Source: an uncultured Luminiphilus sp.
GTDB taxonomy: Bacteria; Pseudomonadota; Gammaproteobacteria; Pseudomonadales; Halieaceae
Direction: 5' to 3'
DNA length: 64,000 nt
Assembly (NCBI GenBank): GCA_938084055.1
Contig: CALKDK010000021.1
Coordinates: 1-64,000, forward strand
A program made the position numbers and the translations under genes. Below the pieces are notes generated by a model. That model ran no database searches. It saw nothing but the letters and a program-made list of their open reading frames with translations, and was not told the DNA's origin. Position 1 is the stretch's first letter; each line of letters opens with the position of its first letter. Below are positions 45,106 through 64,000 of this stretch, one piece after another.

Positions 45106-45290
45106 TTATCAGTTCCAATGCCTACAGACCATAGACTCTAACCCCAATTACGTTGATCGCTTATGCAATGCGGGGAAAATAGCTTTGAGAACTGGTGCAT
45201 ACCGAGGCAGCTTGCGCGAGCCAATTTCAAGAATCGCTGGAACTCTATAGCTATTTATGCAAATACTCGGGAAGCACTGGCCAACACAGG

Positions 45291-46316
45291 ATGAAAAAAT
45301 ATCCCATGGCTGAAACCGAACAGCCAAACTGGCACATCGACCCTCAGGCACTTAAAGCCTATTACGAACTCAGTGGCATTCAGCCGATATCTGAAGAGGG
45401 CGCGATTAGAGTTCAGCCTACGTTCGGTGAAGCCGAGGGGTACAGGGAGGTTTTTGAACTCTACAGGGGCTTCCAACTGGTCACCGGAGACCTAACCTGC
45501 CACAAAGAAGCGGTGCTGACCATGAAGTCGGATGGCTCCCTGAAATTCCATTACCGACTGGAGGGCTTCAGTGGCCTCGAACTCTCTGACCAGGCGGAAA
45601 ACCACATTACCCGGTACTCCATGGGGGTTCTATTGTCCCCAGTGGGAGTCCGTAAGGCAGAGCATTATCTGGAGGGTGAACACGAACGCTCGGTTACTCT
45701 GATCTGTGAAGCGGGGTTCCTTCGAGATCGATTTGGCTGCCAACTATCGGACCTTCCCGCGGCACTCGAGAACTACATTATCACGGGCAAGGTTGCGCCC
45801 TACAACCACCGGGTTGCTATGAATACCGAAGCAATAAACGCCGCACGTATGATTCTCGATACGCCATTACGCGGGAGCCTGCGCAGGCAATATATTGAGG
45901 CACGAGCCCTTGAATTACTGGTACTGAGCCTGAACGCCTGCTCGGAGCACGAGCGTAATGCCGGTAATCCGTACTACGGCATAAATGCCAGGGACATCGA
46001 GAGAATGCAGAAGGCACGTCTTCTTCTCGAACAGCAATATGACTGCCCCCCTACGATCACTGCCCTGGCCCGGGAAATCGGCTTGAACGAAGCCAAGCTA
46101 ATGCATGACTTCAAACAGCTGTTTGGCCAGACCATCTTTGATTTTACGCAGAACATAAGAATGGACGAGGCCAAACGATTACTCGAAAACACCAACAAAA
46201 GCATCACTGAAATAGCATTCGACGTAGGCTATGAGTATTCCAGCAACTTCACCACGGCCTTCAAAAGACGCTTTGGCGTTCCGCCCTCCGTGGCCAGGGA
46301 AGCATTTAAAAAATAA
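45291..46316 (+). CDS. AraC-family transcriptional regulator
   Basis: A regulator of about 341 residues (ATG 45291 assumed; GTG 45195 and ATG 45306 are other choices, none with a good ribosome-binding site). The N-terminal half is a variable ligand domain. The C-terminal double HTH is clear: CPPTITALAREIGLNEAKLMHDFKQLFGQTI, then RLLENTNKSITEIAFDVGYEYSSNFTTAFKRRFGVPPS. It is divergent from the GMC-ALDH pair and upstream of the acyl-CoA operon starting at 46422, so either may be its target. Confidence 0.87.
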   Translation: MKKYPMAETEQPNWHIDPQALKAYYELSGIQPISEEGAIRVQPTFGEAEGYREVFELYRGFQLVTGDLTCHKEAVLTMKSDGSLKFHYRLEGFSGLELSDQAENHITRYSMGVLLSPVGVRKAEHYLEGEHERSVTLICEAGFLRDRFGCQLSDLPAALENYIITGKVAPYNHRVAMNTEAINAARMILDTPLRGSLRRQYIEARALELLVLSLNACSEHERNAGNPYYGINARDIERMQKARLLLEQQYDCPPTITALAREIGLNEAKLMHDFKQLFGQTIFDFTQNIRMDEAKRLLENTNKSITEIAFDVGYEYSSNFTTAFKRRFGVPPSVAREAFKK

Positions 46317-50633: not shown

Positions 50634-51710
50634 CTAAGCCGCCAGGGACGAAGAGCGTGCCACCTGCAGTACACGTTCAATATCTTGGGGATCCGTTGCA
50701 AAACTTGTCACCAGGCGCACCATGCCCTCCATGACCGGCCACTCGTAATAATCAAAACCAGCCCCCTTGAGCGCGGCGTCAGTGGCTGCACTGAGTACAG
50801 GAAAGACTTCATTGGACTGGGTAGGCCACGGCAACTCGATTCCGGGTATAGCGGACAACCCCCTGGCTAGCCGCGTTGCCAATTCATTGGCATGCCGCGC
50901 ATTTTTCAGCCAGAGGTCATCGCCCAGAAAGGCGTCAAACTGGGCAGCGAGGAAGCGATGCTTTGACCAAAGGTGCCCCGCGCGCTTGCGTCGAAAAGCA
51001 AACTCCTCGCTGAATTTCTTGTTGAAGAACACCACCGCCTCTGCGGCTATCGCACCATTCTTGGTGGCGCCAAAGGTGAGTGCATCGACGCCAGCCCGCC
51101 AGGTGAGATCGGCCGGTGACGCACCGGTGCTGACCACAGCGTTTGAAAACCTGGCTCCGTCGATATGCAGTGCAAGATCCAGTTCCGTCGCCGCTTGAGC
51201 GTACTGGGCAATTTCATCGGGATTCAGCACGGTGCCGCGCTCGGTAGAATTGGTAAGACTGATAACCGCAGGTTTGGCATTGTGGACCCCATTGGCCCGG
51301 GATGCTGCCACTCGGCCCCTGATTTCATCAATCGATGGTCGACCCAAATCACCCGGCAAACCAATCTGCCGCGCACCGCCGGTGAAAAATTCGGGGGCCG
51401 TATTTTCGTCGCAATGGATATGTGCTTCCTGATGACAAAGGATGGCACCCCAGGGTGGGCACATTGCGCTCAGTACCAGAGCGTTAGCTGCTGTACCTGT
51501 CGCAACCAAGAACACCTCACACTCTGTCTCAAATACCTCATTCAATCGGTGCTTCACGTTTGCAGTGAGGCTGTCCTCACCATAGGCAGAGTCTGATCCC
51601 GTTGAAGCCGATGCCAGCGCTTCAAGAATTTTAGGGTGTGCACCCGCCTGATTATCGGATCCCATAAACGTGACAGCCGGGGGGCCGCCCGCTTTCTGCT
51701 CGTCTGACAC
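50634..51710 (-). CDS. Low-specificity L-threonine aldolase / beta-eliminating lyase family
   Basis: A 358-residue PLP enzyme of the threonine-aldolase family. GSDNQAGAHPKILEAL and YGEDSLTANVKHRL are near the N-terminus, the PLP Lys is in DALTFGATKNGAIAAEA, and HIDGARFSNAVVSTG precedes it. Expected reaction: threonine to glycine plus acetaldehyde, with broad beta-hydroxy-amino-acid activity. The GTG start at 51710 has GGAG 6 nt before it. It converges on the DUF35 gene (28-nt gap). Confidence 0.92.
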   Translation of the reverse strand: MSDEQKAGGPPAVTFMGSDNQAGAHPKILEALASASTGSDSAYGEDSLTANVKHRLNEVFETECEVFLVATGTAANALVLSAMCPPWGAILCHQEAHIHCDENTAPEFFTGGARQIGLPGDLGRPSIDEIRGRVAASRANGVHNAKPAVISLTNSTERGTVLNPDEIAQYAQAATELDLALHIDGARFSNAVVSTGASPADLTWRAGVDALTFGATKNGAIAAEAVVFFNKKFSEEFAFRRKRAGHLWSKHRFLAAQFDAFLGDDLWLKNARHANELATRLARGLSAIPGIELPWPTQSNEVFPVLSAATDAALKGAGFDYYEWPVMEGMVRLVTSFATDPQDIERVLQVARSSSLAA

Positions 51711-52262: not shown

Positions 52263-52784
52263 TCAATCTGTTGTCGGCAAGCCCAGCGCCGCCAGGGCCT
52301 CAGGGGGTAACAGCTCGGCAAAGGGCTCTGTTGCCCAACCCTCGGCAGCATCACAACAAAAATGTACCCAAGCAGTCACGCGCTGGAACCGCCAAACTCC
52401 ATTTTCCTTGACGTAATCCTCCTCGTAACCCCCAACCGCCAGGTGAGCTCGATCGCCTTCAGGATGTATCGTTGTCATGTATTGAATCAAGCGCCATCGG
52501 CCCGTGGCTTTATCACCGTCAACGTGGATCAATGGATTCATCACGAAATGCTGGTTAAGGCGCAGGTAAGGCCACAGATCTCGATACATTTTGGCAATCG
52601 CCACGCGACCCTCAAACACACCGTCCTCCCCTTCATCCAGAACGGCGTCTTCGGTAAAAAGATTGGCAAACTCGTCGGCGTTCTGGCCGCTGTCGGCATA
52701 AAGGCAGTAGTAAGCTTTCAATCGCTTGATGGCTTCAATATTTTGTAATTCCTGAAGGTCAGGCACGATCCCAGCTGCTGTCAT
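52263..52784 (-). CDS. NTF2-like/SnoaL-fold protein
   Basis: A 173-residue NTF2-like protein: IEAIKRLKAYYCLYADSGQNADEFANLF, GRVAIAKMYRDLWPYL and GRWRLIQYMTTIHPEG. Related fold members act as small-substrate dehydratases or isomerases in aromatic and steroid catabolism. The start at 52784 overlaps the amidase stop as ATGA, so it belongs to the decarboxylase-amidase-NTF2 operon. Function unassigned. Confidence 0.82.
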   Translation of the reverse strand: MTAAGIVPDLQELQNIEAIKRLKAYYCLYADSGQNADEFANLFTEDAVLDEGEDGVFEGRVAIAKMYRDLWPYLRLNQHFVMNPLIHVDGDKATGRWRLIQYMTTIHPEGDRAHLAVGGYEEDYVKENGVWRFQRVTAWVHFCCDAAEGWATEPFAELLPPEALAALGLPTTD

Positions 52785-54265
52785 GTAGAGGGCTCCGCAG
52801 TGATCACGTTGAGTGGGGGGAGTTGGGAAAAGTACTGGGGCATTTCTCGTTCCATGGTAGCTGCGATCCAGATCAAATCGGCTTCGCCACACCAGGGGGC
52901 ATAGAACTGTATTCCCAGTGGGCAATCATTGCTATCAAGCCCCGCCGGCAAACTGATGGCGGGCAAGCCGGCATCATTGGCAGGCAATGTGTAACGACAT
53001 AAATCCAGACTGTGATCGAAGAATTCGTCGAAGGGTGATTGGCTCGAGAGCGCATAGCGGCTTTCTACTTCAGGGCAGATATCCCCCAGCGCCGGTGTCA
53101 GCAACAAGTCAAATCCCTGCCCCCAGAAATTGCCCCACTGCAGTGTTGTAGCAGCGTTCGTCTCCATTGCCGCCAAAAAGTCATTTAGTGAAATGTTTTT
53201 GGCCGCCTCTATCAACTGTAACGTTTGATGGCTGGTATTTTCGGGCGTCAACGTCACGCCGCAAGCAGCCGCCATTTCGGGTATCCAGCGTCCAAGGGGT
53301 GCCACCCAGTTAGCGATTTTATAGGAGGAGAAAACCTGTTCAAAATCACAAATCTGCTGATCTTCGACCCAAACCACCTCATGACCTTTATCGGCCAGCC
53401 AGTCCGCAATGCCTAGCACGGCTTCGCGTCCATCGGCGGGCATGCTGTCGGCCCTCGACCAGTTGCCGGTGGATACCGCTATGCGAAGCCTGCGATGAGT
53501 CGTCAATAAACTTGGGGACAGCGATGGCGGTTTGGGATAGGGCATAAACCCAATGCCCCTATCGCGGTGACACAGTAATTCATGAACGCGCGCTGTATCC
53601 CTAACACTGCGTGTCACAATGCCCTCAGACGCAGAGGGTAGGGTCGCTTCGTTGGCTCCTGTAGGCAGCGGCAGCCGACCCCGCGTTGTTTTCAGACCAA
53701 TCAAACCCGTCCACGCCGCAGGTAGGCGTATTGATCCCGCACCATCGGAAGCACTGCACACAGATAAAGCGCCTGCCGCAACCAGCGCAGCAGAGCCCCC
53801 CGAGGACCCACCCGGTGACCGGCGGAGATCCCAGGGATTGCGGGTGATACCAAAACCAAGGGTCTCCGTAACAGCCGCCATACCGTCTTCTGGCGTTGTG
53901 GTACGCCCTATTAAATTGAAGCCCGCGGATCGAAAATTGAGGGTTAGCGGATCATCTTCACCGGCAATCATTCCTTTTAGCCAACCGTAGCCCGCCTCCT
54001 GGGCCCTACCCTTCATTTTCGACCCCAAGTCCTTGAGCATCATGGGAACGCCACTGAACGGCCCATTCGTCACATCAGGCGCAGCAATGGCGTCCTCAAA
54101 CAACTCAACCACGGCATTAACATGGGGGTCGATTTTTGCCACTGCCAAACCCGCCTGGTGGGCCAACTCCGCGGCCGACACATCGCCCGAGCTCACCAGT
54201 TCGGCAAGTCCCGTCGCGTCTCGTTGGGCGTATTCCTGCCAGGACAGTGCGGTACCCTGAGTCAT
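52781..54265 (-). CDS. Amidase (amidase-signature family)
   Basis: A 494-residue amidase-signature hydrolase. The catalytic Lys is likely in PMMLKDLGSKMKG. The Gly/Ser-rich motif RRSPGGSSGGSAALVAAG contains the Ser nucleophile and cis-Ser, and DGAGSIRLPAAWTGLIGLK follows. It hydrolyses an amide to acid plus amine or ammonia. The start overlaps the decarboxylase stop by one base (TAATG), and the stop overlaps the NTF2-like start by 4 nt. Substrate unknown; see the regional finding. Confidence 0.92.
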   Translation of the reverse strand: MTQGTALSWQEYAQRDATGLAELVSSGDVSAAELAHQAGLAVAKIDPHVNAVVELFEDAIAAPDVTNGPFSGVPMMLKDLGSKMKGRAQEAGYGWLKGMIAGEDDPLTLNFRSAGFNLIGRTTTPEDGMAAVTETLGFGITRNPWDLRRSPGGSSGGSAALVAAGALSVCSASDGAGSIRLPAAWTGLIGLKTTRGRLPLPTGANEATLPSASEGIVTRSVRDTARVHELLCHRDRGIGFMPYPKPPSLSPSLLTTHRRLRIAVSTGNWSRADSMPADGREAVLGIADWLADKGHEVVWVEDQQICDFEQVFSSYKIANWVAPLGRWIPEMAAACGVTLTPENTSHQTLQLIEAAKNISLNDFLAAMETNAATTLQWGNFWGQGFDLLLTPALGDICPEVESRYALSSQSPFDEFFDHSLDLCRYTLPANDAGLPAISLPAGLDSNDCPLGIQFYAPWCGEADLIWIAATMEREMPQYFSQLPPLNVITAEPST

Positions 54266-55671
54266 TACTTTGCCTCCATTACAAAGGTAGGCACCTGATC
54301 ACGGGCAAATACCTCATCGACTGATTCCGGCCGCTTGGCCCAATCTGCCTGATCACCACTGACCAACACCGTTCCCGGGCGAGGTAAGGAATTAAAATTC
54401 GCCGCCATGGGTTCGATATAGGCACCGGTGTTAAGGAGCGCAACAACGTCGCCCACCTCAACTTTCGGTGTCGCAACCTGTTGAAACAAAATTTCGGCGT
54501 TGCAGCTCATGCCCACCAGATCACCGCAGTCGGTCTTTGTCTCACTTGCCTTATTGGCGATTATAAAATCGAAGGGTGGCTCATCGTTGAGCCCACCCAC
54601 ACCCAAAAACACCTCGGACGTGTCCATTTCTGACCATTTTCTTGGGCGGTGAATGGTTTCTTCCTTAACATTTCTGATCGTTGCAAGGTGTATGCCAGTA
54701 TCCGTGTGCAGTCCCCTACCCGGCTCCACCTCCAGGGTAACTCCCGTCGGATCAAAACCACTTTTCAGCAATTCACTGTGCAGCGTTGTGGCAATGACCT
54801 CAGCGAATACATCAAGCGATGCTCCCTCATAGCCCTGCACGGCAACATCGGTGTCTCTGTCTGATTCACTTGGAAAGCCGCCACCCAAATCAATCTCCCT
54901 CGGCGACCAATCAGGCAGCTGATCTCGAATCAGCGCAATAATCTCAACGCAATGACGAGTCCATGCCTGCCACACTTCAGAAAACTTACTGTGGCGCCCC
55001 ATATGAGCGTGAACCCCCACCAAGTCGAGACAGGTTGATTTCGCAATAAATGACACCAACTCGTGCAGCTCTGCTGTAGGGACACCGTATTTAATAATTT
55101 GCGTCAGCTCTCTGATCTCAGCGCCAGGCAGAAAATCCGACTCCAGGGTGAGGTCTTTCAAAAAAGGTTTTACGCGAATCATGACTCTTGCGGAAAGCTT
55201 TAACTCGGTCGCAACCTCCTCGCAGAGTAAGAGCTCTCGCGTGCTGTCGACGACAACGCGAGCGCCATGAGCTACCGCACGCTGAATCATGGACCGGTCT
55301 TTGATAGATCCATTAACTGAAATCAGTTCTGGAGCCACACCGCCACGAATAGCCCCTTCGAGTTCGCCCGGACCAAAAATGTCACAGCCACTACCTTCAT
55401 CACTGAGTATGCGGCGAAGAGCCAGGAGCGGCGCGGCTTTGAAGGCACACATAATCCGCACGGGTCCCCACGGCCAATGCTGGGCAAAGGCCTGTTTAAA
55501 CCGGCGCAGGTTTGCCCTCACGTGACGCTCGGAGACCACAAAAATGGGCGTCCCGAAGGTTTCTGCCAGATACGCCGCATCGCACTCCTCAATCTGCAGC
55601 CGCCCGCCAACAATGCTGAGGCTACGATTAAGCACTGCTTCGGTCTGCCGCGCCAACGGAGCTTTTGTCAT
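54265..55671 (-). CDS. Fold-type III PLP enzyme, diaminopimelate/ornithine decarboxylase-like
   Basis: A 468-residue alanine-racemase-fold PLP enzyme. The PLP Lys is in RIMCAFKAAPLLALRRIL, in place of the usual YAxKAN. GSGCDIFGPGELEGAIRGG follows, then a substrate-domain segment HAHMGRH and EIDLGGGFPSE. EPGRGLHTD binds the phosphate, GMSCNAEILFQ supplies the likely catalytic Cys, and NTGAYIEPMAANFN closes the active site. It is closest in style to decarboxylases of basic amino acids (DAP, ornithine, arginine, carboxynorspermidine) or related racemases. It is divergent from the TonB receptor and probably shares the operator at 55763-55782. Confidence 0.85.
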   Translation of the reverse strand: MTKAPLARQTEAVLNRSLSIVGGRLQIEECDAAYLAETFGTPIFVVSERHVRANLRRFKQAFAQHWPWGPVRIMCAFKAAPLLALRRILSDEGSGCDIFGPGELEGAIRGGVAPELISVNGSIKDRSMIQRAVAHGARVVVDSTRELLLCEEVATELKLSARVMIRVKPFLKDLTLESDFLPGAEIRELTQIIKYGVPTAELHELVSFIAKSTCLDLVGVHAHMGRHSKFSEVWQAWTRHCVEIIALIRDQLPDWSPREIDLGGGFPSESDRDTDVAVQGYEGASLDVFAEVIATTLHSELLKSGFDPTGVTLEVEPGRGLHTDTGIHLATIRNVKEETIHRPRKWSEMDTSEVFLGVGGLNDEPPFDFIIANKASETKTDCGDLVGMSCNAEILFQQVATPKVEVGDVVALLNTGAYIEPMAANFNSLPRPGTVLVSGDQADWAKRPESVDEVFARDQVPTFVMEAK

Positions 55672-55762
55672 GGTGGTATCACCCCTTTTATCTCAAAAAG
55701 ATTTGAAATAGCCAGTCCCTATTTTTCATTTTTTGCCGATATCTGACTAATCAAACCCTATT

Positions 55763-55782
55763 AACTCAAATTTTTTCGAGTT
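55763..55782. promoter_or_regulatory. Candidate TetR operator upstream of the TonB receptor
   Basis: The 20-bp site AACTCAAATTTTTTCGAGTT has perfect 5-bp dyad arms AACTC...GAGTT with a 10-nt centre. It shares 18 of 20 bases with the site at 62013-62032. It lies between the divergent decarboxylase and TonB genes, next to a possible -10 TATAGT (55782-55787). An additional inverted repeat TCAAA-AAGA-TTTGA lies at 55693-55706, close to the decarboxylase start. Confidence 0.65.
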
Positions 55783-55911
55783 ATAGTCCGGGGAGTTTGC
55801 CATAATTCGTCCCGTAAGAAACCCTCGGGTTGTACCACTTTAAGGGCATTCCACCCAGGGGCCGTACCAGCGCAATCTATGAATACAAAAATTACTTTAG
55901 GGAGCCACCCC

Positions 55912-58422
55912 ATGAAGCTATACAGAAAACCGGTCGCAGTCGCTGTTGCACTCGCCAGCGCAGCTTGTATGGAATCGACACTTGCCCAGGAGTCATCTCT
56001 TGCCCTGGAAGAGGTTGTGGTCACGGCAACGCGCAGAAGCCAAAGCGTTGTTGAGGTTCCCTACAACATAACGGCTTTGAGTGCAGACGAGCTGGCAAGG
56101 GCGGGGATCACCAATCTTGCAGGGGTTATGAACAGCGTTGCCGGAGTCGTTTTCTCCGATCAGGGCCCCCGCGGCAATGCCATAAACAACGGCATCGTTA
56201 TGCGTGGTCTAAATATTCGGGCCCAAGCCACCAATGGCATCTTCAGCAATCTGGCGGTTCCCACCGTATCGACGTACATTGACAACACCCCAGCCTTTTT
56301 TAATCTCCAGCTGGTGGACCTGAATCGAGTTGAAGTGCTGCGCGGCCCCCAGGGAACCCTCTATGGATCGGGCTCACTCGCCGGAACCGTCCGCTTTATC
56401 CATAACAAACCCAGCATGGAAGCTGTAGAAGGTTACTTATCCGGAGGAACCGAATGGCTTGGTGAGTCCTCGGATGCCACCTATCAGGCAGAAGGCGCGA
56501 TTAATATCCCACTGAGCGAAAACGCTGCTCTGCGAATTGCTGGCGCCTATGAGGATCGAGGGGGCGTCATCGACTATACCGCGATCTACCAGCGCCAGAG
56601 CGGACAAACCGTACTGGAAAACCCCAACGACATTTTAGGAAGTCCCGCCGCAACACAGGTCATAGAAGATGGCGATACGGCCAAAAGCTACAGTCTGCGA
56701 GCCAGCTTGCTTTGGGAGCCCACCGACAACCTCAGTGCGCAATTGAATTTTCACCACCAAACCGTCGACGCCGACGGAGAGAACTATCGGGAGCTGGGAT
56801 CTGATGCATACGAGTCTTTCGATGCCTCCCGCAGTACTTTCGAGCAAGATGTAGATTTGCTCAGTCTCGAAGTAGAGGCTGATTTGGGCTTTGCCACCTT
56901 GACCTCAAGCACCGCCTATACCAAAAACGAGATCGACACCGTACGCGACCTTGGCTACCTGCCCGTCTATCTAGACTCGGTACCACTGTACTATCTCTTT
57001 GGTGTGGGCTCCGCCACTCGACCAGGCTGCGCATTTTATGGCTGTTATCCTCGATCCAACCTCTTTCCGGCGATAGAGCCCCAGGATCGCGATGACTTTA
57101 CGCAGGAATTCCGGCTGGGCTCCAATGGCGACGACAATAAAATTGACTGGTTGTTGGGTGCTTATTACAACGATCAGGAAACTGATCTTGTCTCTGATGA
57201 AGAAATTCCGGGTTACGCCGAGTGGGCATCGCTTGACGGATCTGCCGATGCCGCCGTTTCGGCATACTATAATGCAGACATCAATCTGCCCCCGGGCTAT
57301 AACTTTGCCAATACCTGGTTAAATCCACTCCTGTATGCGCTAACCCCACAGCCGGGAATTCCCCAGCTGTACATAGCGAGGCAGTCCGAATTCAAAGATA
57401 TGGCTGTCTACGGCGAGGTCACTTTTAACGTGACAGATAACTGGCAGATTACGGGCGGAGCCCGCTATTTTGACCAGGAATACGAAATCGCACTGCAGCA
57501 GATCTTTACCAACTGTGGCGCTGCCTGCACTACCGCTGACCAGGCGTTCATGGATCAGCTGGGAGCACAACTCGGCTACGAACTCAATGCGCTCTGGGGT
57601 GTCTCGGGCAGCACCAATAAGCAGGACGAGTCTGATGTCATCTTTAAGCTGAACACGTCTCTTGCTGTCGGCGAACACAATCTCTACTTCACATGGGCTG
57701 AGGGCTTCCGCCACGGTGGTGCCAATGCCCTGCCGATTGGTTTCGACATCATTACCCAGGAACTCATTGGCTATGACGCGGACGAGACCCAAAACTGGGA
57801 GGTGGGCGCAAAAGGCTATTTATTGGGCGGTCAGTTACAGTATTCAGCGACCGGTTTTTACACGCAGTGGGACAAATCACAAATAGAAGCCTTCGTAAGC
57901 ATCGCCGCATTGCCAGCTGTAATTAATGCCAATGAAGCCGAGAGCAAGGGCTTAGAGGTGTCCATCACAGGCAATCTAACCGAGCGGCTTTCGTTTTTCG
58001 CCGGATATACTTATACCGACGCCGAGTTAACAAAGGGTTTTTCAGCAGCGGCCGGAACAGTTGTGGGCATCGCCGGCTCCCCACTACCCAATATCTCTGA
58101 GCATATGGCCAATGTGTCAGTTGACTATCAAATCCCGTCCCTCATAGGCGGGTTTGACCTAATACTTCATGCTGACGGGCGTTACCGAAGTGATGCCCAG
58201 AATGACCTTGCCGGTGGCTTTAATGACTACCTACTGAAGTCCTTCAGTATCTGGAATGCCAGTGTCAATCTTGTTGATGAAAAGTGGACCTTGACCGCTT
58301 TCGCCAACAATCTGACCGATGAAACGAATGCTGTAACCACCGTGGCTGTTCAAGCTGGAACCAACTACGAAGCGGCCGAACGACCTCGTAGCCTGGGGGT
58401 CAGGCTTCGCTACGATTTCTAA
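55912..58422 (+). CDS. TonB-dependent outer membrane receptor
   Basis: An 836-residue receptor. Signal peptide (VAVAVALASAACMESTLAQ), plug start LEEVVVTATRRSQSVVEVPYN, RVEVLRGPQGTLYGSGSLAGT, barrel strands to the end, and the terminal aromatic in RLRYDF. The chosen start has AGGGAG about 7 nt upstream. It probably imports the compound that the decarboxylase, amidase and P450 genes process; no siderophore genes are near. A candidate TetR operator and -10 box lie in its 5' region. Confidence 0.94.
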   Translation: MKLYRKPVAVAVALASAACMESTLAQESSLALEEVVVTATRRSQSVVEVPYNITALSADELARAGITNLAGVMNSVAGVVFSDQGPRGNAINNGIVMRGLNIRAQATNGIFSNLAVPTVSTYIDNTPAFFNLQLVDLNRVEVLRGPQGTLYGSGSLAGTVRFIHNKPSMEAVEGYLSGGTEWLGESSDATYQAEGAINIPLSENAALRIAGAYEDRGGVIDYTAIYQRQSGQTVLENPNDILGSPAATQVIEDGDTAKSYSLRASLLWEPTDNLSAQLNFHHQTVDADGENYRELGSDAYESFDASRSTFEQDVDLLSLEVEADLGFATLTSSTAYTKNEIDTVRDLGYLPVYLDSVPLYYLFGVGSATRPGCAFYGCYPRSNLFPAIEPQDRDDFTQEFRLGSNGDDNKIDWLLGAYYNDQETDLVSDEEIPGYAEWASLDGSADAAVSAYYNADINLPPGYNFANTWLNPLLYALTPQPGIPQLYIARQSEFKDMAVYGEVTFNVTDNWQITGGARYFDQEYEIALQQIFTNCGAACTTADQAFMDQLGAQLGYELNALWGVSGSTNKQDESDVIFKLNTSLAVGEHNLYFTWAEGFRHGGANALPIGFDIITQELIGYDADETQNWEVGAKGYLLGGQLQYSATGFYTQWDKSQIEAFVSIAALPAVINANEAESKGLEVSITGNLTERLSFFAGYTYTDAELTKGFSAAAGTVVGIAGSPLPNISEHMANVSVDYQIPSLIGGFDLILHADGRYRSDAQNDLAGGFNDYLLKSFSIWNASVNLVDEKWTLTAFANNLTDETNAVTTVAVQAGTNYEAAERPRSLGVRLRYDF

Positions 58423-58441
58423 TAGCTGCATTGACTCAAAA

Positions 58442-58480
58442 GGAGTGACCGACCACCGGCCACTCCGGATTATTTCGGAG
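58442..58480 (+). other. Overlapping hairpins after the TonB receptor
   Basis: A 9-bp stem with one mismatch, GGAGTGACC / GGCCACTCC (58442-58466), overlaps a second stem CTCCG-GATTATTT-CGGAG (58463-58480). They begin 20 nt after the receptor stop. There is no strong T-run, so it is either a weak terminator or an RNA-processing structure that sets the expression of the genes after the receptor. Confidence 0.35.
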
Positions 58481-58537
58481 CACCCGGCATTGTGATATAG
58501 GTGTCAGTACTCTCATGCCTGTACCGGACAGAACGTA

Positions 58538-60127
58538 ATGAAGCATAAAAGTCTGTCGGCCGTTTTATCCCAGGGACGAACAGCACTGCGGCAGAAAAAT
58601 TTACCTCTGGCCGAGCAATGTGCCCTGCAGCTCCTTAAAGCCAACAGTGATGAAACTCAATTCCTGTCATTTGCCGGCCAGGTTTTTCTCGCCGCCGAGA
58701 GCTGGGAAAAAGCCGAGCGCTGCTACCGAAGGGCCCATGAACTGGTTCCAGAGCATCTACCTTTCATGATCACCCTGGCGGAGACACTCTGTCGACTGCG
58801 GGGCCGTCAGGACGAGGCCGTTCGTCTGGCAGAGCAGGTATTGGACAGCCATCCAACCGATGCTCGCATCCTAATGTCCATGGGCTCTGTCTACAGTCAA
58901 GCGGAACGCTATGAGCGTGCTTATGCGCTGTTCACCAAGGGCCTTTCCTTCGAACCAGATAACCCGGAACTGTGCTACATGGCTGCCACTACGGCGCGAT
59001 TTCTTGGCCACCTGGCCGACGCAGAGGCGCATGCAGACCGCTGCGTGAGGCTGGATCCTGATAACTACGAAGGATTATTCCTACGGTCAGATGTGCGCAA
59101 ACAGACACCCGAGCACAATCACATTGCAGAATTGGAGGCACGAATTGCAGCCGGTTTTACAGACCGGAGGAACCAGTACCATCATTACTTTACCCTGGCC
59201 AAGGAGTATGAGGATCTGGGTCACTACGATGCCTCATTTGCCGCATTGAAGAGCGGGGCTGTAATACGGCGCGGTGGTATGGCCTATAAAGTCGAACACG
59301 ATGTTGAGGTGATGACGGCACTCAAGGAAACTTTTAGCGAAAGCTTTTTCGCACAGGAACGCGCAGCCGGCTGCGGTGACGAAGGCCCAATTTTTATCGT
59401 TGGTATGCCTCGGACTGGCACTACGCTCCTGGAGAGGGTCATTGCGAGTCAGGGTGAAGCAACGGCCGCTGGGGAGCTCAATGAGCTCAGCCTCATGATA
59501 AGTCATATTGTTAGAAGCCTCTCCGGCAAAGAAAAACTGAGCAAACTGGAATTGGTGCGGGGCTCAAGCAAACTCGACTTTTTCAAACTTGGACAAACCT
59601 ACCTGCATGCGACAAAAAAATATGCGCGGGGTAAATCACTCTGGATTGACAAGATGCATATCAATTTTCTGTACTGCGGGCTCATTCACTTGTCCATGCC
59701 CAATGCGAAAATGATCAATCTGGTTCGCCACCCCATGGACACCTGCTACTCCAACTTTAAAATGCTGTTCAACGCCGGCGCGCCCTATTCCTATGCACTG
59801 GAAGATCTCGGACACTATTACGTCAGCTACCATCAATTGATGGAGCATTGGCAGGCCGTTCTACCCAGCGGGATTCACCAGGTCGAATACGAATCCCTAA
59901 CAACAAACTTCGAAGCGACCGCCAGGCGGGCGTTGGATTTCTGTGGCCTACCCTGGAACAACGATGTGCTTGATTTCCACAAAAATGCAGCAGCCTCAAC
60001 GACCGCCAGCGCATCTCAGGTAAGACAACCCCTATATCAATCGTCGGTAGCCCGGTGGCGAAATTATGAAAAGCAGCTAGAGCCATTGCGCGCAATTCTG
60101 GAAGCGGGAGGTGTGCCCATTGGCTAA
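58538..60127 (+). CDS. TPR-repeat sulfotransferase-family protein
   Basis: A 529-residue protein. The N-terminal half has TPR-like helical repeats (LAAESWEKAERCYRRAHEL, AERYERAYALFTKGLSFEPDN). The C-terminal half is a PAPS-dependent sulfotransferase: 5'-phosphosulfate loop FIVGMPRTGTTLLERVIAS, then the 3'-phosphate region LVRHPMDTCYSNFK. No signal peptide is seen. This two-domain family is often found near TonB receptors in marine bacteria. It may sulfate a metabolite or peptide; the acceptor is unknown. Confidence 0.85.
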   Translation: MKHKSLSAVLSQGRTALRQKNLPLAEQCALQLLKANSDETQFLSFAGQVFLAAESWEKAERCYRRAHELVPEHLPFMITLAETLCRLRGRQDEAVRLAEQVLDSHPTDARILMSMGSVYSQAERYERAYALFTKGLSFEPDNPELCYMAATTARFLGHLADAEAHADRCVRLDPDNYEGLFLRSDVRKQTPEHNHIAELEARIAAGFTDRRNQYHHYFTLAKEYEDLGHYDASFAALKSGAVIRRGGMAYKVEHDVEVMTALKETFSESFFAQERAAGCGDEGPIFIVGMPRTGTTLLERVIASQGEATAAGELNELSLMISHIVRSLSGKEKLSKLELVRGSSKLDFFKLGQTYLHATKKYARGKSLWIDKMHINFLYCGLIHLSMPNAKMINLVRHPMDTCYSNFKMLFNAGAPYSYALEDLGHYYVSYHQLMEHWQAVLPSGIHQVEYESLTTNFEATARRALDFCGLPWNNDVLDFHKNAAASTTASASQVRQPLYQSSVARWRNYEKQLEPLRAILEAGGVPIG

Positions 60128-60166
60128 CGTTCAGGTTGAGCGTCCAAAAAAGGAAAGGCATCTGCC

Positions 60167-61150
60167 ATGACTAATTTTTATGAGCGAAATTCGACGCTCT
60201 CCACTGATCAGAACAACCCTATGAAAGAACCCCGATTCGTTGGCATACCTACGTTCATGCGTACCCCCTTGGTAACCGACTTGAATGAACTCGACATTGC
60301 CCTCGTGGGTGTGCCCTATGATGGGGCTGTCACCAACCGCCCTGGCGCACGCCACGGACCACAGGCCATACGAGCCGCATCGGCACTGATGCGCTCCATC
60401 CATCATGTTCACAAATTCAGCCCCTATGATCTTTGCCGAGTCGGCGATGTGGGCGACATAAAGCTCTCCCGAATGTATGAGCATGAGGAGGTGGTGAAAG
60501 AAATCGAGCAGCAATACCAATGCCTGATTCGGGCCAACATCACACCGCTGAGCGCCGGGGGAGATCATTCGGTCACCTATCCAATCCTCAAGGCGGTAGC
60601 CGCTGAGCGGCCCGTTGCGTTGATCCATATTGACGCACATACCGATACCTGGGATGAATTTTCAGGATCAAAATTCATGCATGGCTCACCTTTTCGACGC
60701 GCCTGCGAAGAGGGGTTAATCGATCCCAATCGAACCATACAGATAGGCATCAGAGGCGCCCAGGAAACGTCTGAAGGCTGGGACTATTCGCTGCAACAGG
60801 GCATGCGTGTTGTGTTCATGGAGGAATTCACCAAGCTGGGTGTTGCACACGTTATTGACGAAGCCAGACGGCTGGTGGGCGATCAACCGACCTACATCTC
60901 TTTCGATGTCGACGGCCTGGACCCCGTCTATGCGCCCGGGACAGGAACTCCGGAAATTGGAGGAATTACCACCATAGAAGCACTTGAACTACTGCGCGGC
61001 CTGCGGGGTTTGAATCTCATCGGTGGGGATGTCGTTGAGGTCGCACCGCCTTTTGATCCCAGCGGTAACACGGCACTCGTTGGCGCCACCCTCATGTATG
61101 AGATTCTTTGCTTACTGGCCGAGGCGAGAGTCGGCTTTAAAAACCAATAG
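60167..61150 (+). CDS. Ureohydrolase, agmatinase/SpeB family
   Basis: A 327-residue arginase-superfamily enzyme. Binuclear Mn ligands are visible: GGDHSVTYPIL, IHIDAHTDTWDEF and SFDVDGLDPVYAPGTGTPE. MHGSPFRRACEEG also fits agmatinases or guanidino-acid hydrolases. It hydrolyses a guanidino group to urea plus amine. A clear GGAAAGG box precedes ATG 60167. Together with the nearby decarboxylase it suggests use of an arginine-type or guanidino compound. Confidence 0.9.
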   Translation: MTNFYERNSTLSTDQNNPMKEPRFVGIPTFMRTPLVTDLNELDIALVGVPYDGAVTNRPGARHGPQAIRAASALMRSIHHVHKFSPYDLCRVGDVGDIKLSRMYEHEEVVKEIEQQYQCLIRANITPLSAGGDHSVTYPILKAVAAERPVALIHIDAHTDTWDEFSGSKFMHGSPFRRACEEGLIDPNRTIQIGIRGAQETSEGWDYSLQQGMRVVFMEEFTKLGVAHVIDEARRLVGDQPTYISFDVDGLDPVYAPGTGTPEIGGITTIEALELLRGLRGLNLIGGDVVEVAPPFDPSGNTALVGATLMYEILCLLAEARVGFKNQ

Positions 61151-61249
61151 CGCCAAGGCCCTGTATCCCCCGGACTATTTTATACTCAATCACTGAAGTC
61201 AGTTGCCGGCCCAACTCCCAATAGATTTGTTAACTGCTCATCGGATGCG

Positions 61250-61909
61250 TCAGGGGCCCTCCGCTGACGGTGACGTCGCTCGAGGTGTCAATATGCTCGG
61301 GAAATACGTCAGCAGGTACGCCTTTGATGCGCGTCCAGCCTCAACGGTCATGTGTGGTGTAATTTCATCGACACGCAGTACAGACAGGGTAAAAAACAAG
61401 TCAATAATTTCCACGACATGAAAAAATATTTCGTTTGCCCGGGGTACATCCGGCAAATAAAAGTGCTGGCTTATCGCCTCTATCAAAATACGGCCAATGA
61501 CTTCATCATTTAGACGATCTGACATTTTGATGTCAGAAGGCACCCGTGCTCCCAAAATAAGCTGTCTGTAAGCCGCACTGGCATCATAAAAATCGCGAGC
61601 TCGTTCGATTGCATCATCGATAATCTTAAGCCAACTATCCTCCGGCAAAATTTGGTAAGGCTTCGCTAATTCTCGATCAAGCTCGTCAGAAAAAAGTTCA
61701 CCCAGCGCTTGATAAACCGCCATCACGTTAGGAAAGAAATGGTAAGCCGATCCAGTAGGAATCCCTGCATGGGTCGCGATGTCAGCCAGTGACAATTCCT
61801 CCATGCTGCGTGACTCCAACAAATCGCGGGCAGACTCAATCAGCCGCTGCCGGCGTTCACGGCCGCGAGCCTGGGTCGCTGATTTTTCTTTTTCACCCGT
61901 CCTCATCAC
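61250..61909 (-). CDS. TetR/AcrR-family repressor
   Basis: A 219-residue regulator. The N-terminal HTH is RRQRLIESARDLLESRSMEELSLADIA and GIPTGSAYHFFPNVMAVYQALG. The C-terminal domain is ligand-binding. It is divergent from the P450 gene, and the 232-nt gap between them holds the 20-bp site also found before the TonB receptor. A possible TATTAT -10 on the minus strand sits at 61987-61992. It is the best candidate repressor for this whole catabolic set. Confidence 0.88.
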   Translation of the reverse strand: MMRTGEKEKSATQARGRERRQRLIESARDLLESRSMEELSLADIATHAGIPTGSAYHFFPNVMAVYQALGELFSDELDRELAKPYQILPEDSWLKIIDDAIERARDFYDASAAYRQLILGARVPSDIKMSDRLNDEVIGRILIEAISQHFYLPDVPRANEIFFHVVEIIDLFFTLSVLRVDEITPHMTVEAGRASKAYLLTYFPSILTPRATSPSAEGP

Positions 61910-62012
61910 AAGCTTTCTTTCCAGAAGTTATAGATTACATCCCCCTTAAAAATCGAAGTTATTTGGAATTTTACCGCTAATGAGTGATAATATCCGCAAA
62001 TATTCGCATAAA

Positions 62013-62032
62013 AACCCAAATTTATTCGAGTT
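62013..62032. promoter_or_regulatory. Candidate TetR operator between tetR and the P450 gene
   Basis: AACCCAAATTTATTCGAGTT differs from the site at 55763-55782 at only two positions. The dyad arms AACCC/GAGTT are slightly imperfect. Its position favours a P450 start downstream (62142), since a start at 61980 would put it inside coding sequence. Confidence 0.65.
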
Positions 62033-62141
62033 GAGGCTGACATCCTGTCTGGATGGCTACAGTAACACAAAGGGTAAACCCGGCCTGCCTGAGCCTAGCA
62101 GCCCATCAAGCCGCCGAGACCGGAGAGCACTATCCACCATC

Positions 62142-63377
62142 ATGACTCACGACGTTAATACCTTACCCAAGCACGAACCTGCATTTAATGCCTTCAGCGA
62201 GGCCTTTATCAGCGACCCCTTACCCTTTATGCACAAAGGGTTACGCCACCAGGGTGTCCTCAAGCACGAGACTACCCTCGATCCAATCTACAGCCTGTTC
62301 CGCTACGAGGATGTGAAACACGTGCTCCTTGATTGGGAAACATTTTCCAGCGCCCCCATAAATACAGACCTCGATGCCTTGAATCTGGGCAGGGCTACCG
62401 AAAATTTTATATTAATGGACCCTCCTCGCCACAATCGATTGAGAGCGCTGGCACAGCAGGGGTTCTTTCCAAAAGTTATCGAGCGGTTTCTACCGCGTGC
62501 CCAACGAATTGCCAATGAACGCTTCGACTACGCCCTTGAAGCGGATCGGTTTGACCTGGTCAACGACGTTTCAGCACAGCTCACCATTGGCATGATCACG
62601 GGAATTCTTGGCTTACCATCGGAGGACTGGCCCGTTATACGTGACTGGACCAACGTTATGCAGCGGAACACCATGGCATCTTTTTGGCTCACTGAATGGG
62701 ATCATGAGCGGTCTGAAGGGGTTGAAAGAGTCACCGGAGAGATGGCCGATTACTTCCACGACCACCTACAGTTCCTGAAGAAGCACCCTACCGACGACAA
62801 CATCCTATCCATATTGATGACAACCGAGCTTGATGGAGAGCGCTTCACTGATGAAGAAATAGAATCTACAGCGATGCTACTGTTACTGGCCGGGAACGAG
62901 ACCACCACCAATTTGATTACCAATTTTGTGCGCTGCATGGCACGTTATCCCACACAATTTGATTTGCTGAAAAGAGATCACTCCCTACGTAACGCCGCTA
63001 TTGAAGAGACGCTTCGTCTGGAGCCCTCTTTAAGAATGACCGTGCGTAGTGTCTGCCAAGATGTGGAATTTCACGGCGTATCGATTCCTGCCGGAAATTC
63101 AGTCGCACTGTGGTTAATGGCTGCCAACCGCGACCCCGATGTCTTTGATAATCCTGACCAATTTGATCTGACAAACAAACGACCACGACACCTCAGTTTT
63201 GCTGCAGGGCCGCACTTCTGCCTGGGAGCTCCCCTGGCGAGAATGGAGGCCGATGTTGCCGCCCATACCTTACTTCAACGCGTGCAGCACATTGAGCTAT
63301 TGAGCCCTCCCCAGATGTCCGACAACGGGAATCTGAACAATATTCTATCCCTTGAAGCGCGCTTTGAAGGGTATTAA
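62142..63377 (+). CDS. Cytochrome P450
   Basis: A 411-residue soluble P450. I-helix LLLLAGNETTTN, ExxR in EETLRLEPS, and the haem-Cys loop FAAGPHFCLGAPLARME are all present and in order. Length and lack of a membrane anchor fit bacterial class I enzymes, which need a ferredoxin and reductase not seen here. ATG 62142 is chosen because an upstream frame from 61980 would overlap the operator. The stop is directly followed by the ATG of the dimethylformamidase-like gene, so P450 hydroxylation (for example N-dealkylation) and amide hydrolysis may be linked. Confidence 0.93.
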   Translation: MTHDVNTLPKHEPAFNAFSEAFISDPLPFMHKGLRHQGVLKHETTLDPIYSLFRYEDVKHVLLDWETFSSAPINTDLDALNLGRATENFILMDPPRHNRLRALAQQGFFPKVIERFLPRAQRIANERFDYALEADRFDLVNDVSAQLTIGMITGILGLPSEDWPVIRDWTNVMQRNTMASFWLTEWDHERSEGVERVTGEMADYFHDHLQFLKKHPTDDNILSILMTTELDGERFTDEEIESTAMLLLLAGNETTTNLITNFVRCMARYPTQFDLLKRDHSLRNAAIEETLRLEPSLRMTVRSVCQDVEFHGVSIPAGNSVALWLMAANRDPDVFDNPDQFDLTNKRPRHLSFAAGPHFCLGAPLARMEADVAAHTLLQRVQHIELLSPPQMSDNGNLNNILSLEARFEGY

Positions 63378-64000
63378 ATGACACATGAACGAACGGTAAT
63401 CGGGTACTGCGACCCACTGACGGCACGGCCCGGGGATACCGTAGCATTCAAGGTCAGTGCGACAACCACGACGCCTTACCAGGCCGACCTTGTACGACTC
63501 AGAAACGCCGACACCCTGACTCCTGCCAATCGCTTTTGTGAGCTACCCGTAGAGTCAGCCTTTGCGGGTGACTATATAGGCTCGAATCAACCCATTTACA
63601 CGGGTTCATATGTCGAAGTAACCGACACGACCCTAGCAGAACTCCAGGGCAGCTTTTCTATTTCATTATTTTTTAAGCCGACCACAGCGCACAAGGGGCG
63701 ACAATTCCTCATGTCTCGCTGGAATGAAGCCACGGGGCAAGGCTGGGCTATATGTCTCAATGAACGGGGGCATCCCGAACTCTTACTGGGTGACGATCGG
63801 GGACGTCGCTTTGAGCTATCGACCATGATGTTGGCGTTAGATGGTGTCTGGACGTATATCGCTGCAAGTTTCGATGCTGATAAAAGCGAGTTTCAAATTT
63901 TCACAACGCGCACCAGTAAAACAGGTAATACGTTGCTGGACTGGCCGCTGCGCAGATCGCGAAGCCTTCCGGAAGATTTTCAGCCGACGCAGAGCGGGCC
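63378..64000 (+). CDS. N,N-dimethylformamidase-like large subunit (3' end outside window)
   Basis: An open frame from ATG 63378 to the window end (207+ residues, no stop). It begins VIGYCDPLTARPGDTVAFKV and QADLVRLRNAD, as in N,N-dimethylformamidase large-subunit proteins. A lectin/LamG-like beta-sandwich follows: SFSISLFFKPTTAHKGRQFL and GWAICLNERGHPELLLG. The catalytic half lies beyond the edge, so the reaction cannot be confirmed. Translation is probably coupled to the P450 (TAAATG). The family hydrolyses N-alkylated formamides, but many members have no tested substrate. Confidence 0.6.
   Translation, partial: MTHERTVIGYCDPLTARPGDTVAFKVSATTTTPYQADLVRLRNADTLTPANRFCELPVESAFAGDYIGSNQPIYTGSYVEVTDTTLAELQGSFSISLFFKPTTAHKGRQFLMSRWNEATGQGWAICLNERGHPELLLGDDRGRRFELSTMMLALDGVWTYIAASFDADKSEFQIFTTRTSKTGNTLLDWPLRRSRSLPEDFQPTQSG

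Follow-up and report, generated by a model that had tools for sequence, protein, structure and literature searches.

The transcriptional regulator of the TetR family encoded near the right end of the window, the 64,000-nucleotide stretch of contig CALKDK010000021.1 from an uncultured Luminiphilus sp. examined here, is very probably an autoregulated repressor of ten genes, acting through two 20-bp palindromes, O1 and O2, that lie at both divergent promoter pairs of the block (Table 1). The architecture and placement of the sites, their conservation and their co-occurrence with this TetR lineage were obtained directly by computation. The original prediction, made from a repeat noticed by eye, had proposed such a TetR regulon. 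It is supported by the uniqueness of the close sites in the draft genome, by their co-occurrence with the gene set and by similar sites beside TetR relatives elsewhere.

Palindromic sites in two divergent gaps

Both 20-mers were found where they had been predicted, O1 between the LysA-like decarboxylase and TonB-dependent receptor genes and O2 between tetR and the cytochrome P450 gene, and they are identical at 18 of 20 bases. This identity was rejected as evidence by itself, because an all-against-all count of the window gave ten distinct pairs of direct 20-mers that agree at 18 or more of 20 bases. The pair is set apart by the palindromy of both copies and by its location in gaps of divergent genes: O1 and O2 are imperfect palindromes, each self-complementary at 14 of 20 positions, and form the sole pair of the ten in which both copies reach this value, the next highest being 10. 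The pattern originally given for the sites has two matches in the window, where shuffled sequences would give 0.01, a circular comparison since the pattern was derived from those same sites.

Within the organism's own draft genome (2,920,084 bases in 79 contigs, 82.75% complete) only O1 and O2 lie within one mismatch of AACYCNAATTTWTTNGAGTT. The next-best match has two mismatches and falls within a 350-aa open reading frame (C74:2613), so the genome scan suggested with the prediction returned no unrelated close copies of the 20-mer from this draft.

Two weaker copies, overlooked in the original prediction, are present in the same two gaps (O1' and O2', Table 1). When the rest of the gap sequence was shuffled 500 times, the score of the corresponding second site was reached once in the tetR gap of G049, a second genome of the genus, 15 times in G107 and never in the related loci L069 and L081. 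The eight strong-to-weak spacings are 73, 63, 73, 32, 63, 27, 95 and 22 bp, and at 10.5 bp per turn seven of them differ from a whole number of turns by about 0.1 turn or less, a pattern that was spotted post hoc, includes several weak sites and one (L070) outside the shuffle test, and draws on spacings that are partly non-independent. The window spacings of 73 and 63 bp are near 7 and 6 helical turns, which would put the paired sites on one face of the helix. In the tetR/P450 gap both sites are kept while the spacing shifts from 63 bp in the window to 73 bp in G049.

A -10-like TATAGT lies directly at the edge of O1 and is kept in G049; a promoter scan reported no promoter at O1, and the -10 reading rests on the two-species alignment. 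A consensus promoter scan of the O2 region found two matches against 1.4 expected. The mechanically listed open reading frame of the P450 starts at 61980 and would cover O2. Because its 5' part shows long unmatched gaps when aligned with G049, the ATG at 62142 is the more likely start, and 61980-62141 is probably a false extension of 54 codons covering O2.

Conservation within the genus

The original estimate of about ten genes agrees with the ten that read away from the two gaps, and G049 carries the identical set in the same order, at 56-86% identity, on a contig of 21,825 bases. With a scoring matrix built from the two window sites only, which was also used to score the window, the three top places in the first 20 kb of that contig are L055:4012 in the lysA/TonB gap (24.6) and 10172 and 10245 in the tetR/P450 gap (19.2 and 16.8), while the fourth scores 9.6. 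Across the whole G049 genome there are eight matches within three mismatches, two of them in the corresponding gaps, and L055:4012 is the sole match within two. The operator columns are also better conserved than their surroundings: O1 and L055:4012 agree at 15 of 20 columns, and the remainder of that aligned gap agrees at 85 of 181; for O2 and its gap the figures are 16 of 20 and 69 of 147. Overall the rest of the two gaps is 47% identical, compared with 15/20, 16/20 and 17/20 for O1, O2 and O2'.

Among 57 genomes of the genus, a site within one mismatch was found in two, the N,N-dimethylformamidase (DMFase)-like protein in two and, through a family-level search covering the genus, the TetR in two, and in each case these were the window's genome and G049. 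The sites thus travel with the gene set, as had been anticipated. Further regulon sites outside the block were sought with a looser symmetric pattern and rejected: it matched 17 places in G000 and 28 in G049, a reversed control matched 21 in each genome, and apart from the block these numbers are background. Between the two tetR/P450 sites of the G049 contig there is also an A/T palindrome, TTATTTTTTAAAAAATAA, that is perfect over 18 bp (L055:10220-10237, equivalent to L068:7882-7899).

Sites beside related TetRs in other lineages

A profile search with a three-row TetR alignment gave 114 matches, of which the best 80 were kept as loci; a contig scan with the single window TetR sequence returned no relative. 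The foreign test set comprised 24 loci (L068-L091), including the contigs of G049 and G107 (L068 and L072) that had first given the idea. The window-only matrix gave a mean best score of 13.06 over these loci; matrices with symmetrically permuted columns gave 7.87 ± 0.87, and 1 of 1000 of them scored as high. Within 400 bp upstream of tetR the mean was 5.49 compared with 1.07 ± 0.91 for the permutations (0 of 1000). Without L068 and L072 the permutations as high numbered 0 of 1000 for whole loci and 1 of 1000 upstream of tetR. An earlier version with 20 loci, to which L089 had been added after its site was seen and from which L087, L088, L090 and L091 were omitted, gave 0 and 0 of 1000. Taken locus by locus in the whole-locus test of those 20, at most 8 of 1000 permutations were as good in seven: L068, L069, L070, L072, L076, L081 and L085.

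Three loci are clear cases. In L069, from a member of the Thermoanaerobaculia (Acidobacteriota), 65 bp separate tetR from an amidohydrolase-kinase-aminotransferase run, and this gap holds sites scoring 24.6 and 17.4; in Vibrio hannami (L081) scores of 26.4 and 20.5 occur before a fused kinase-aminotransferase gene; and in the Halieaceae genome SI047 (L072) tetR and a kinase gene flank a site scoring 20.5.

A first reciprocal test, with matrices made from sites that the window matrix itself had picked, was circular and was superseded by de novo searches in which only the 20-bp palindromic form was presupposed. Using the 120 bases before aguB in six aguB-aguA-tetR loci and no window letters, the search returned AAGTCGAGTTAACTTGAGTT-type sites, and the resulting motif ranked O1 and O2 joint first among 63,981 window positions, with O1' and O2' ranking 95th and 26th. 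A second motif, from the tetR or kinase gaps of L069, L070, L072 and L081, which had been chosen for their window-matrix hits, ranked O2 first, O1 second, O2' third and O1' eighth. From L069 and L081 alone, O1 and O2 came first and second, O2' fourth and O1' fifth.

Two extensions were rejected. Psychrobacter TetRs were considered as further members, but in 52 loci with distant TetRs, which served as a negative control, 225 of 300 permutations did as well, so that there was no enrichment. A general TCGA-N6-TCGA signature for the whole TetR group did not stand out from other spacings across whole loci.

The recognition helix and operator position 8

For a comparison of protein and operator letters, positions 8 and 13 were excluded from the matrix when the best site of each locus was picked. 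Where residue 52 of the TetR is threonine or valine, the best site carries A/A at positions 8/13 in all five loci (the window, L068, L069, L070 and L072). Where it is glutamate, the best site carries G/G in 10 of 16; the six exceptions are L077 (A/G), L082 (G/G as second hit only), L125 (TetR truncated) and L073-L075, loci that start inside aguA, so that the aguB promoter is missing. Arginine accompanies G/G in one of two loci and alanine (L071) accompanies C/G, while five rows had no readable motif. The three Pseudomonas-like TetRs whose helix could be read have proline at this residue and T/T sites. The glutamate rows belong mostly to one clade, and the pattern may reflect a single event, yet it links the operator letters to the letters of this protein.

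The TetR protein and its relation to AguR

The window TetR has an N-terminal TetR_N helix-turn-helix domain, and 28 solved chain sequences match it, mostly across this N-terminal part. The palindromes O2 and O2', to which it is predicted to bind, stand at its own divergent promoter gap and are kept in G049. In a 41-row tree it pairs with the TetR of G049 (support 100/98), within a side of 26 rows that also holds the TetRs of aguB operons, and three Pseudomonas-like TetRs beside aguB/aguA fall on the opposite side of the midpoint root (88/90).

AguR of Pseudomonas aeruginosa, a repressor likewise of the TetR family, is reported to occupy the aguBA promoter between -35 and -10, from which agmatine releases it (PMC4287709). 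Beside it may be set family f21, whose genomes were taken for Pseudomonas by inference: TetR relatives about 30% identical adjoin aguA in five of its six loci (L065, L179, L180, L181 and L187, not L178), with aguB also matched in two. In four of the six the gap after tetR contains a 20-bp palindrome whose YCGA motifs are placed alike, e.g. TAATCGATTTTTATCGAATA, a possible likeness in operator architecture as judged from these loci. The position of O1 against TATAGT would resemble that of AguR at its promoter. In contrast, the window TetR lies across the midpoint root from the Pseudomonas-like proteins, and neither aguA nor aguB is matched in the window or in L054, a part of its own contig. Its gene adjoins those for the agmatinase, the TonB receptor, the P450 and the DMFase-like protein, and its sites carry A at position 8; an agmatine deiminase family match in its genome is on another contig (C28). 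It would thus work like AguR in kind, while its neighbours and its clade place it outside AguR proper.

The TetRs of the aguB-aguA-tetR runs (L076, L077, L080, L082, L083 and L085) are nearer relatives, with 33-38% identity. As in the window, a 20-bp palindrome is present, here of the AAGTCGAGTTAACTTGAGTT type and 40-56 bp before aguB in all six loci. Unlike the window TetR, these proteins have glutamate as residue 52, their operators mostly carry G at position 8, and they accompany agmatine deiminase rather than agmatinase.

Alternative explanations

Several results weigh against a repressor of this kind. No NCBIfam cut-off is passed by the window TetR, and its C-terminal Pfam match, TetR_C_22 (21.1 bits), is under the cut-off of 26.4. 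Thirteen of the 20 loci do not reach 8 or fewer of 1000 permutations in the whole-locus test; the relatives in L071, L078, L084 and L086 have no convincing site, L084 ending shortly after tetR; and the four foreign gaps behind the second de novo motif had been selected for their window-matrix hits. The counterpart of O1' in the lysA gap of G049 is poor (score 4.6, reached in 97 of 500 shuffles), with only 14 columns aligning, 9 of them identical, and the 27-bp spacing of L069 (2.57 turns) breaks the helical phasing. Lysine at residue 52 accompanies A/A in one of four loci, and the residue-52 pattern as a whole rests on few changes, the TetRs of the aguB operons being one clade. A matrix scan also found no convincing site for a second TetR of G049 (L055:18520-19206), 43% identical to the window TetR. 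This paralogue adjoins an aminotransferase and another ureohydrolase, and its matched range holds two stops.

The sites may belong to the TetR and yet serve activation, at both gaps or at one of them with repression at the other. TetR-family activators exist, and one of them, FasR, is among the weak NCBIfam matches of the window protein. O1' and O2' occupy positions of an upstream type, and O2 lies downstream of the one promoter-like sequence found in its gap. Such a role is nevertheless unlikely, as O1 abuts the conserved -10-like element, a position suited to blocking, and AguR, the best-studied of the relatives encountered, is reported as a repressor (PMC4287709).

Somewhat less probable still is ownership of the sites by another regulator, with the TetR as a bystander: an AraC-type protein (gene at 45195-46316), a LuxR-type protein (gene at L054:8916-9752, past the window) or a global factor. 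Both regulator genes share the contig with the sites, but neither protein has a match in the G049 contig of 21.8 kb, where the sites are kept. That contig ends about 0.5 kb left of the SnoaL-like gene, and an adjoining AraC gene is possible there. A global factor should give many copies, and two close copies were found in the draft genome. In L069, L070, L072 and L081 the common factor near the sites is a TetR relative, the other identified neighbours in L070 being GlmS, GlmU and AtpD.

A chance likeness or a functionless remnant repeat, suggested by the ten direct 18/20 pairs of the window, is highly improbable given the palindromy, the conservation in G049 and the cross-lineage tests.

Proposed regulation and pathway

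We infer binding, repression, inducer and substrate from the sequences. In repression by the TetR, the protein would bind the 20-bp palindromes, probably as a dimer, with a strong and a weaker site on the same DNA face in each gap, and would repress both divergent promoter pairs, its own promoter included. At O1 it would block RNA polymerase, because the site abuts the -10-like element kept in G049. A compound of the pathway would then release the repressor and turn on the ten genes together. An agmatine-like amine is a plausible inducer, since the relatives include the TetRs of aguB-aguA operons and, at a greater distance, AguR-type regulators and since the block has a decarboxylase and an agmatinase.

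The putative roles of the gene products are uptake (TonB receptor), hydrolysis (amidase and DMFase-like protein), oxidation (P450), decarboxylation, ureohydrolysis (agmatinase) and phosphorylation (APH-type kinase). The decarboxylase and agmatinase suggest an arginine-like compound passing via an agmatine-like amine, and judging from the amidase, DMFase-like protein, P450 and TonB receptor this compound may arrive as a larger amide. PRK06148-type fusions have a kinase part, to which the kinase of the block shows a weak match, and a second part, matched by an aminotransferase located farther on in the G049 contig; the nearest such aminotransferase in the window's genome is 47% identical and lies on a different contig. 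Kinase and phospho-lyase routes, to which the kinase/aminotransferase pairing may be likened, serve hydroxylated amines.

Gene control of this sort is ordinary, and its mechanism belongs to a known type. No description of this regulon or its operator was recognized in word searches of the open literature, judged mostly from listings. Tentatively, and with considerable doubt, a relative of agmatine-sensing TetRs may have been recruited to govern an entire marine pathway handling an arginine-derived compound (uptake by TonB, amide cleavage, P450, decarboxylase, agmatinase and kinase), with a code relating residue 52 (T/V, E or P) to operator base pair 8 (A, G or T, respectively) and with helically phased paired operators that gained or lost one whole turn between species (63 versus 73 bp). 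For a marine lineage known here from draft genomes, a repeat seen by eye has led to a candidate regulon with its operator, regulator, likely inducer class and the boundary of a ten-gene pathway. If the residue-52 pattern holds, operators of this TetR group would be predictable from protein sequence in many genomes.

Gene block and neighbouring features

Table 1. Predicted operator sites, promoter-like elements and genes of the block (percentages are identities to the G049 counterparts)
Feature	Position	Strand	Description
O1	55763-55782	+	AACTCAAATTTTTTCGAGTT; predicted operator in the divergent LysA-like/TonB gap
O2	62013-62032	+	AACCCAAATTTATTCGAGTT; predicted operator in the divergent tetR/P450 gap
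O1'	55690-55709	+	weaker site, 73 bp from O1; score 13.3, third best in window; reached in 0/500 gap shuffles
O2'	61950-61969	+	weaker site, 63 bp from O2; score 12.8, fourth best in window; reached in 5/500 gap shuffles; 17/20 columns identical in G049
-10-like TATAGT	55782-55787	+	at the edge of O1; putative, from sequence and two-species alignment
Promoter-like TTGGAA-17-GATAAT	61963-61991	+	between O2' and O2, towards P450; weak consensus-scan match
SnoaL-like protein	52263-52925	-	PF13577; 64%
Amidase	52781-54265	-	PF01425, 226 bits; 68%
LysA-like PLP decarboxylase	54265-55671	-	first gene left of O1; PF02784; NCBIfam lysA 208.9 bits, under cut-off 297.9; 70%
TonB-dependent receptor	55879-58422	+	first gene right of O1; PF00593, PF07715; 86%
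TPR-sulfotransferase	58538-60127	+	PF13469 and TPR families; 70%
Agmatinase-type ureohydrolase	60167-61150	+	NCBIfam agmatinase TIGR01230, 217.4 bits, cut-off 174.3; 78%
TetR-family regulator	61250-61909	-	proposed owner of the sites; PF00440, 32 bits, cut-off 24; 56%
Cytochrome P450	62142-63377 (probable start; frame listed from 61980)	+	first gene right of O2; PF00067; 70%
DMFase large-subunit-like protein	63378-64000, continues past window	+	730 aa on contig; PF20254, 262.4 bits; 65%
APH-type kinase	after the DMFase-like gene, past window end		PF01636, 77.5 bits; 59%

To the left of the block, a PLP aldolase gene (50634-51710) matches the GntG model weakly (85 bits, cut-off 230); the G049 contig, whose end is close to the SnoaL-like gene, gave no match to its product. 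Past the window on the same contig, a second set of GAD-like decarboxylase, SDR and agmatinase-like ureohydrolase genes (L054:9777-13067) adjoins the LuxR-type gene, and parts of this set also adjoin TetRs of the Glu52 type in L058, L089, L125 and L137.

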